Assembly: GCF_014873945.1 (NCBI RefSeq)
Contig: NZ_JADBEC010000001.1
Coordinates: 1,840,001 to 1,904,000 of the forward strand
Source: Rhizobium viscosum
Lineage (GTDB): Bacteria; Pseudomonadota; Alphaproteobacteria; Rhizobiales; Rhizobiaceae
Reading direction: 5' to 3'
Length of the DNA stretch: 64,000 bases
Notes under the pieces: model-generated
What the model was told of the DNA's origin: nothing
What the model saw: the letters and a program-made list of their open reading frames with translations, nothing else
The model's database searches: none
Position numbers and translations under genes: made by a program
Shown: in pieces, positions 59,909 to 61,132 of the stretch
How the letters are laid out: every line of letters starts with the position of its first letter
Position numbering within the stretch: the stretch's first letter is position 1

Positions 59909-60730
59909 TTAACGCAGCTTCGGGCGCAGGGCAACGATCGCTGCTGCCGTTTCCTCGATCGAGCGCCGGGTGACGTCGATCATTGGCCAGTTATGCCGGG
60001 CACAAAGAGAGCGTGCATATTTCAGCTCCTCCGAGATTGCTGCACGGTCGGTATAGTGCTCGCGGTCGAAACCCGGTGTTGATCCGAGCAGACGATTTTC
60101 GCGAACCTGAGAAATCCGATCCGTGGTGGCGATGAGGCAGACGATCAGCGGTTTGGTCGCTGTCGCCAATGCCTCGGGCAAAGGCACGCCATAGACGATC
60201 GGGATATTAGCAGTCTTGATGCCACGATTTGCGAGATAGATGCTGGTCGGCGTCTTCGACGTGCGGCTGATGCCGACGATGACGACATCGGCTTCATTGT
60301 AGTCCTCCGGCATCTGACCGTCGTCATGGTCCATGGTGAAATTCAGCGCTTCGATGCGCGCGAAGTAGCCGGCATTCATCACGTGCTGAGCGCCTACCCG
60401 CCTTCTGGAGGGAGCGCCGAGATAGATCTGGAACGCGCCGATAACCGGCTCCAGAACATTGACCGAGGCCACGCCCATTTCCGCGCAGCGTTCGTCAATG
60501 ATGCTGGCAAGCTCCGGATCGACGATCGTGTAGAGAACAATGCCAGGTTCATTGTCGATTGCCTGAAGCACCGGCATCAACTGCTTGCGGTTTCTGATCA
60601 GCGGATAGACGTGTTCGATCGGCTGAGAAGATTTGAACTGAGCCGAGGCGGCACGGCCGGCGGAGATCAGAGTCTCGCCGGTCGAGTCAGAAATCAGATG
60701 CAGATGGAAGAAGTTCGTTCTGTTCTCCAC
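59909..60730 (-). CDS. ppsR: Pyruvate, phosphate dikinase / PEP synthase regulatory protein (DUF299)
   Basis: A 273-residue PSRP. HLISDSTGETL is the N-terminal signature and VGISRTSKTPTSIYLANRG is the P-loop-like nucleotide site. It is a bifunctional kinase and phosphorylase that controls a PEP-forming dikinase through Thr phosphorylation. The target dikinase is elsewhere. It is the first gene on the left side of the origin, facing away from hemE, the same arrangement as in other alphaproteobacterial origins. Confidence 0.93.
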   Translation of the reverse strand: MENRTNFFHLHLISDSTGETLISAGRAASAQFKSSQPIEHVYPLIRNRKQLMPVLQAIDNEPGIVLYTIVDPELASIIDERCAEMGVASVNVLEPVIGAFQIYLGAPSRRRVGAQHVMNAGYFARIEALNFTMDHDDGQMPEDYNEADVVIVGISRTSKTPTSIYLANRGIKTANIPIVYGVPLPEALATATKPLIVCLIATTDRISQVRENRLLGSTPGFDREHYTDRAAISEELKYARSLCARHNWPMIDVTRRSIEETAAAIVALRPKLR

Positions 60731-60815
60731 GCTATTTTCCGCTGCCTGTTGAAAAGACTGGACAGCGAAGAGCTAATGGCGTGGCCGGGATCGAGGCAAG
60801 GGAAAACATGCCTCC

Positions 60816-60824
60816 TTATCCACA
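60816..60824. other. DnaA box TTATCCACA
   Basis: A perfect match to the consensus R-box of DnaA, on the plus strand. Confidence 0.85.
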
Positions 60825-60904
60825 TCCGGAATTTTTGAGAGTTGTCTCAGAAGTGCTTGTGGAGTGTGGGGACAGTGATCATGCTTCCCAAGACGATGCA
60901 CAGC

Positions 60905-60913
60905 TTATCCACA
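60905..60913. other. DnaA box TTATCCACA
   Basis: A second perfect match in the same orientation, 89 bases to the right of the first. Confidence 0.85.
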
Positions 60914-61079
60914 AGATAGATGACAAAGTGAATTCTTTGAACCTTCTGGAATCTCTCTAGGATTCGGATTTCCTACCGTTTTAAGCGCAGATACACGGAT
61001 CTCGATTCTGGCTAACCCGGTCCGCGTGACAAATCGCGCTGCCAGTGGATGGATTTTAATCCTTGATAGACACCGACTC

Positions 61080-61120
61080 TAAGAAATAGAAACCTTTTAA
61101 AATATTTTTGGATTTTTATA
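61080..61120. other. AT-rich block, candidate DNA-unwinding element
   Basis: A run dominated by A and T (including TTTTAAAATATTTTTGG) directly before the hemE ribosome-binding site. It is the most AT-rich piece of the origin region and the likely site of first opening; it may also be the hemE promoter. Confidence 0.5.
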
Positions 61121-61132
61121 GGGAAGACGCGC

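Follow-up and report, generated by a model that had tools for sequence, protein, structure and literature searches.

Does the non-coding gap between ppsR and hemE hold the replication origin (oriC) of the main chromosome in this rhizobium, and which of its sequences would do the work? The oriC of Sinorhizobium meliloti reportedly adjoins hemE, with ppsR, maf and aroE on its other side, an arrangement attributed to Sibley et al. in 2006; autonomous replication has reportedly been observed for that origin, and the gap studied here was examined at the sequence level. The window, i.e., the whole 64-kb stretch of DNA that was analyzed, covers positions 1,840,001-1,904,000 of contig C1 in a 7.07-Mb genome with contigs of 4,237,330, 2,396,089, and 436,203 bp, and the gap occupies positions 1,900,731-1,901,132 of C1. 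Our analysis suggests that the gap is very probably the DnaA-dependent oriC of the main chromosome, in which DnaA would act on boxes at nearly fixed positions and an AT-rich stretch beside hemE is predicted to melt. The features on which the following argument draws are listed here in window positions.

59261..59276, no strand assigned: parS-like sequence TGTTTCACGTGAATCA at the aroE/maf junction, with 1 mismatch
59909..60730, minus strand: ppsR (COG1806/DUF299; NCBIfam PRK05339), the left boundary gene
60731..61132, no strand assigned: candidate oriC, the 402-bp ppsR-hemE non-coding gap, placed by parS, the skew fit and the KOPS tallies
60747..60755, minus strand: box slot A, the distal one, TTTTCAACA here (2 mismatches) and TTATCAACA in its family form, with the TGTTGA core in 93 of 97 loci
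60816..60824, plus strand: slot B, an exact DnaA box; 96 of 97 loci have no more than 1 mismatch at this column
60858..60875, minus strand: slot C, degenerate, TGTGGAGTG at 60858 and TGTGGGGAC at 60865, each with 3 mismatches in the window
60894..60902, plus strand: slot D1, degenerate box CGATGCACA; 20 of 97 loci have no more than 1 mismatch
60905..60913, plus strand: slot D2, an exact DnaA box; 57 of 97 loci have no more than 1 mismatch
61055..61091, plus strand: 37-bp conserved block TTTAATCCTTGATAGACACCGACTCTAAGAAATAGAA, mean 1.62 bits, one copy in the sampled chromosome
61075..61079, no strand assigned: GACTC, a GANTC (CcrM-type) site within the block, GACTC in 95 of 97 loci
61081..61120, no strand assigned: predicted DNA unwinding element, AT-rich, from nearest-neighbor energies
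61133..62170, plus strand: hemE (TIGR01464), the right boundary gene, with a predicted TTG start at 61133

The ppsR and hemE gene calls confirmed the 402-base non-coding stretch at an orientation switch that a preliminary description of this DNA had reported, except that its start had been placed at 60723, 8 bp within ppsR, and the gap proper begins at 60731. The gene directions were also as described: 10 of the 12 genes from gyrB to ppsR run leftward (fxsA and secB, the exceptions, run rightward), and hemE, hemJ, and rho run rightward, followed in the same direction by mnmE, mnmG, rsmG, parA, and parB. The holA gene is also located to the right of hemE, after the parA/parB genes, and dnaA lies about 380 kb from the gap, at C1 1,521,751. 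The closest named relative by hemE was Rhizobium mesosinicum, with 95% protein identity in one scan from which very near records are possibly absent, which makes a Rhizobium the probable source. Inside the 402-bp gap there are four GANTC sites (Poisson chance 0.008, calculated from the window rate). No match to Rfam families was obtained in 59800-62000, a search that does not test for the CcnA RNA. Across the ppsR start codon (60723-60731) lies the box-like sequence TTCTCCACG, which in 86 of 97 loci differs from the DnaA box at no more than 2 positions; its conservation may reflect coding constraint only.

The exact DnaA box TTATCCACA occurs twice in the gap, at 60816-60824 and 60905-60913, and the two exact boxes, two degenerate boxes and AT-rich block of the preliminary description were all recovered there. 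In the 7.07-Mb genome the exact box was found 14 times, versus 30 times for the reversed control pattern, and the gap is the sole one of these 14 places to have two close together; by hand calculation, the chance of any such close pair among 14 exact boxes is about 0.002-0.003. A similar picture might arise from a plain divergent promoter region in which DnaA boxes occur by chance, as two divergent genes need promoters and the near-boxes (at most 1 mismatch) in the whole window, eight versus 5.3 expected, show no excess, a total of eight being reached by 16 of 100 shuffles. Such a coincidence is nevertheless hardly credible, because slot B is kept in 96 of 97 loci, the gap measures about 400 bp in most loci, and parS, KOPS and skew data point to an origin.

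The conservation of the presumed origin was assessed in 111 sources, comprising the window, 30 loci chosen by DNA likeness (from 107 matching genomes), and the 80 best loci by hemE protein. From these, 98 gaps were cut, and dropping the copy of the window (L022) gave 97 rows from Rhizobiaceae and near relatives with an effective number of 89; 13 loci in which ppsR was not found (L033, L041, L047, L048, L051, L109, L117, L121-L124, L126, and L127) were left out. The results revealed very little variation in gap length or box position across the 97 loci, while most single box sequences drift. While most rows have a gap of about 400 bp (range 378-515), at most 1 mismatch to the DnaA box was found in 35 of 97 loci at slot A (60747; at most 2 in 84), in 54 at slot C (60858/60867; at most 2 in 85), in 72 at slots D1 and D2 combined, and in 11 at a further slot E (about 60970). 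The earlier view of an origin with few boxes is right for exact boxes, but the gap has four to five conserved slots, and the 37-bp block is absent from the preliminary description.

We then considered the partition sites. With at most 2 mismatches allowed, the whole genome contains four parS sites, all within 47 kb of the gap and flanking it on both sides, at C1 1,899,261, 1,905,632, 1,907,587 (exact), and 1,946,218 (ending at 1,946,233); three of the four, together with parAB, lie no more than 7 kb from the gap. In 79 relative loci of about 9 kb (the best 80 by hemE protein minus one that was too short), 69 had at least one parS-like site. Of the total of 149 such sites, 55 were located 1.5-2 kb upstream of hemE and 80 were located 4-5 kb past the hemE start, and 20 shuffled palindromes together gave 1 match.

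The polarity of KOPS GGGNAGGG was analyzed along the contigs. On C1, minus-strand motifs prevail up to 1.92 Mb and plus-strand motifs from 2.10 Mb to the contig end, with a mixed zone between the two. On the third contig, C3, all sites save one are on the plus strand up to 399,985 and are on the minus strand from 404,462, which constitutes a convergence, and a dif-like site with 3 mismatches to the core seen in other families is located at about 402,103; in the sampled C1, the same core has at least 5 mismatches. The Escherichia coli dif core (at most 3 mismatches) was found neither in this genome nor in the 12 same-genus relatives searched, and was found in five of eight genomes of other families. 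The KOPS convergence and the dif-like site make it very likely that C3 and C1 form one chromosome, C3 being its terminus part and not a plasmid. Since C1 starts within a glutamine synthetase gene, the contigs do not join up in a simple way. The C1 end lies near the KOPS switch, which raised the idea of a linear chromosome with its end at the terminus; this idea was dropped, as C3 carries the convergence.

If the gap is taken as the origin and the dif-like site as the terminus, the right arm has 224 of its 240 KOPS in the expected direction and the left arm 129 of its 135, the tallies covering 56% of C1 and all of C3 with the C1-C3 order taken from polarity; the arms are then unequal (2.74 vs. 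1.94 Mb). GC skew was computed on 279 of 467 ten-kb bins. A two-level fit with the terminus fixed at dif placed the origin best at 1.90 Mb (bootstrap 95% 1.81-2.01 Mb), with 1.93 and 2.02 Mb close behind, and the detrended TA-skew minimum was at 1.89 Mb. In the preliminary description, a cumulative GC-skew minimum within a few kb of the gap had been proposed as a check, which failed in its literal form: the minimum was found at 0.85 Mb in the raw curve and at 2.02 Mb after detrending. The right arm has a mean GC skew of +0.028 and the left arm one of -0.001, despite strong KOPS polarity on both, and the raw minimum falls at 0.85 Mb because the left arm is almost skew-free. As this minimum mirrors the near-zero left-arm skew and marks no clear switch, raw cumulative skew was set aside as an origin test. 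In several alphaproteobacteria, skew is described as insufficient to place origins in a passage of PMC1914354.

The strand asymmetries thus divide, with the two-level fit and the KOPS tallies agreeing with the gap, and the raw cumulative minimum and the KOPS breakpoint disagreeing with it. Under a terminus fixed at dif, the breakpoint of highest likelihood falls at 2.056-2.069 Mb; relative to it, 1.923-1.951 Mb is 2.8 log units worse and the interval of the gap, 1.899-1.923 Mb, 5.5 log units worse; from C1 alone, 1.923-1.951 Mb is 1.8 log units worse. Sixteen right-arm KOPS have the wrong direction, and six of these, all minus sites, lie between 1.92 and 2.10 Mb. This breakpoint and the detrended skew minimum at 2.02 Mb would suit a true origin 20-200 kb to the right, for which the ppsR-hemE gap would be merely an origin-proximal landmark. 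We regard such a displacement as improbable, because most of the parS sites and parAB lie close beside the gap, the skew fit that takes the dif-like site as terminus favors 1.90 Mb (if narrowly), the sole close exact-box pair of the genome is in the gap, and the gap architecture is conserved over 97 loci. We infer that the displaced optima are an effect of the skew-free left arm and a few misoriented motifs just right of the origin, which could result from local inversion or sparse selection close to it. An origin in the gap itself, as the preliminary description had considered probable, is supported by parS, the two-level skew fit, the KOPS tallies and the boundary genes.

The locus belongs to the known hemE-type oriC of alphaproteobacteria, with its location between hemE and a COG1806 gene, a box cluster kept in relatives, an AT-rich stretch, and parS and parAB nearby. 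Only one other non-overlapping 40-bp stretch in the window is less stable than the predicted unwinding element at 61081-61120, and 61081-61127 has 21% GC versus 59% for the window. Caulobacter crescentus Cori, as portrayed in sections of PMC1914354, has the same boundary genes (hemE and COG1806/DUF299), DnaA boxes, and an AT-rich stretch of about 40 bp. It differs in having five CtrA sites and an IHF site, whereas the gap of the window contains no full CtrA site (zero TTAA-N7-TTAA), as had been claimed earlier, and hence lacks the mark of a CtrA-silenced, Caulobacter-type origin. Among the 98 extracted gaps, in which that of the window is counted twice, the full motif was present in one (L110). 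For IHF, the minus strand at 61056-61068 matches WATCAANNNNTTR at 12 of 13 positions (by eye), a match that is not kept in the Aurantimonadaceae loci. Cori also encodes the CcnA RNA, of which an S. meliloti homolog was not clearly detected according to part of PMC8959179.

In a passage of PMC4433202, the S. meliloti origin is described as having no CtrA motif and as unbound by CtrA, which parallels the missing full CtrA site, and the S. meliloti Ak57 record has the same gap as the window, with a score of 65.7 for the 37-bp block; the difference is that the window keeps two exact TTATCCACA boxes. The Ak57 replicon in question, "pSymB" (CP090106.1, L259/L260; 3.72 Mb), begins within the hemE-ppsR gap and is probably the chromosome under a wrong name. 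Three Agrobacterium loci (L092, L102, and L110) share the gap length and the block core with the window, and differ in replicon structure, in a variable box set, and in the one full CtrA motif of L110. For Agrobacterium tumefaciens, part of PMC12153318 reports KOPS GGGNAGGG with dif at their convergence and the firing of ori1 by marker frequency. The basal unwinding system of Bacillus subtilis, consisting of boxes and DnaA-trios, is similar in having box-like sequence by an unstable stretch. Unlike B. subtilis, the window has no trio array of the right polarity, the trio strand polarity being taken in part from a Clostridioides difficile passage. On the strand opposite to the box, no more than 2 central-A trinucleotides follow one another, where at least 3 within 16 bp of a box were required; on the same strand as the box there are 4 in a row, with a shuffle fraction of 0.55, and NAN runs were not longer than in shuffles. 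A DnaA-trio basal unwinding system is thus not supported.

The longest conserved non-coding stretch of the gap is not a DnaA box but the 37-bp block, which abuts the unstable stretch 61081-61120. It is the best conserved 37-bp window of the gap (1.62 bits vs. a median of 0.51 for 37-bp gap windows), and per base it is equaled by slot A (1.61 bits) and slightly surpassed by slot B (1.70 bits), its core GACTCTAAGAA exceeding both at 1.91 bits. In relatives, the median identity to the window is 34/37, the pattern GANTC[AT][ACT]AGAA within the block occurs in 97 of 97 loci, and the exact GACTCTAAGAA occurs in 80. The loci selected by DNA likeness had been chosen with a stretch including the block, which could favor it; the 72 rows chosen by hemE protein only agreed with the full set (1.64 bits for the block, 1.92 for the core, and 1.73 for slot B), with the pattern in 72 of 72. 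A weight matrix of the block scored 66.0 at the window site, and its highest score anywhere else in the sampled C1 was -12.9. In the 13 left-out loci, the block scored 55-63 in four (L033, L041, L051, and L117) and 5-27 in nine, and the best score away from the block was -22.8.

Copies of hemE outside an origin setting were then compared with those within one. Seven records (eight stretches) were scored among the matches listed (60 of 73), with apparent duplicates (H25, H26, and H29) and more distant records left out. Three plasmid records carry hemE in a non-origin setting, those of S. mexicanum (L256), Rhizobium sp. BG6 (L258), and Aminobacter sp. SR38 (L263). On S. mexicanum pEmeITTGR7a, where hemE-hemJ stand without ppsR and hemE is 82% identical to that of the window, the block is eroded and scores 1.9; it is absent from BG6 pRPC (hemE 77%; best plus-strand score -41.6) and from SR38 pSR5 (hemE 59%; -40.0). 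The origin-context scores were 65.7 for both S. meliloti Ak57 (hemE 80%) and Sinorhizobium sp. K101 (79%), 67.2 for Shinella sp. PSBB067 (78%), and 66.0 for Rhizobium sp. NLR16a (90%). The loss or erosion in the off-origin copies, which are three diverged paralogs with the Aminobacter one far more diverged than the origin-context copies, suggests that the block probably serves the origin. The NLR16a block stands intact in a secB-to-mnmE origin region (L257; NZ_CP072868.1, 422735-431628) of a 489-kb replicon labeled "plasmid p3", which is either a mislabeled chromosome piece or a small replicon bearing oriC.

A different function can be imagined for the block within a genuine origin, namely that of a hemE promoter or regulatory site, possibly of the GcrA-CcrM kind, in which case hemE transcription may help opening, as in Caulobacter. 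The block lies 42-78 bp upstream of hemE and contains TTGATA-N18-TAGAAA (5/6 and 4/6 to the sigma-70 hexamers, by eye) with the GANTC between, and hemE transcription is important for Cori replication according to a portion of PMC8959179. A sigma-70 scan of 60700-61250, on the other hand, gave 0 plus-strand sites and 1 minus-strand site (shuffles 0.5), under rules that demand a final T, and therefore the TTGATA-N18-TAGAAA pair could not be listed. Also speaking against a promoter, the block is lost or eroded in 3 of the 3 off-origin hemE copies examined, and the -35-like hexamer is not kept in the Aurantimonadaceae loci (by eye). In A. tumefaciens, moreover, neither depletion nor excess of CcrM clearly affected ori1 according to the relevant part of PMC11514494, which weighs against the CcrM variant and was also the reason for setting aside a methylation switch at GACTC, possible as it is. 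We consider the promoter reading the chief alternative for the block, conceivable though less likely than not. A short leader peptide over the block was rejected because its frame is not kept in the rows compared (by eye).

Returning to a block that serves the origin, we looked for its possible source. The box-like 9-mers of the block have 4 mismatches each in the window; at 61066, 5 of 97 rows reach 2 mismatches, and in the second 9-mer mainly TA..CAC is kept in Rhizobiaceae. For comparison with outgroups, 20 stretches upstream of hemE, representing further families of the order and class, were taken from 84 genomes with a hemE match. A loose box-like 9-mer was found within their last 180 bp in 11 of 20 and in none of the other nine; nine of these 9-mers lie 73-106 bp before hemE, that of L280 at 57 bp, and that of L273 at 15 bp. 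Shuffles gave a mean of 5.7 and reached 11 in 14 of 1000, which is modest evidence by itself. The stricter TAATCCAC precedes hemE in five of the 20 outgroup stretches versus 0.04 expected. In L266, the clearest outgroup, TAATCCCTG-TAATCCACG form a head-to-tail pair, after which come an A-rich stretch and then an AT-rich region. The presence of box-like 9-mers at the same place in other Rhizobiales families suggests that the block may descend from weak DnaA sites. A description of the block was not found in the open-license literature searched, a scope outside which the S. meliloti oriC paper falls; the string GACTCTAAGAA occurs there in six papers, whose titles do not concern replication; PMC3557214 and PMC4468827 contain nothing on a ppsR-hemE origin. 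As a tentative proposal, which we hold with less than even confidence, the block could be an undescribed, origin-specific Rhizobiales element that arose from tandem weak DnaA sites, fixes the place of duplex opening, and replaces the role of CtrA and weak DnaA sites in Caulobacter, with GANTC tying it to the replication cycle.

Taken together, the locus suggests the following course of initiation. DnaA would occupy slots B and D first, as these are nearest to consensus, and the degenerate slots afterwards, so that slots A to D would be filled. Following the general scheme of oriC melting by a DnaA complex, as outlined in part of PMC4285127, this complex would melt 61081-61120, with the 37-bp block marking the border; from its position at the border of the unstable stretch, the block may help to initiate the opening or to fix its site. 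Once replication has begun, the two origins would be segregated by ParB bound to the parS sites on either side. A direct role of CtrA is unlikely here, as reported for S. meliloti.

These results link the start of a rhizobial chromosome to 402 bp of DNA, with the third contig very likely holding the terminus of the same chromosome. They also provide a family-wide map in which the 37-bp block roughly matches the two best box slots in conservation, at four times their length. The mechanism that restrains initiation without CtrA at the origin is called unknown for S. meliloti in a passage of PMC4433202, and the block may offer a short target for the question of how rhizobia achieve this restraint.
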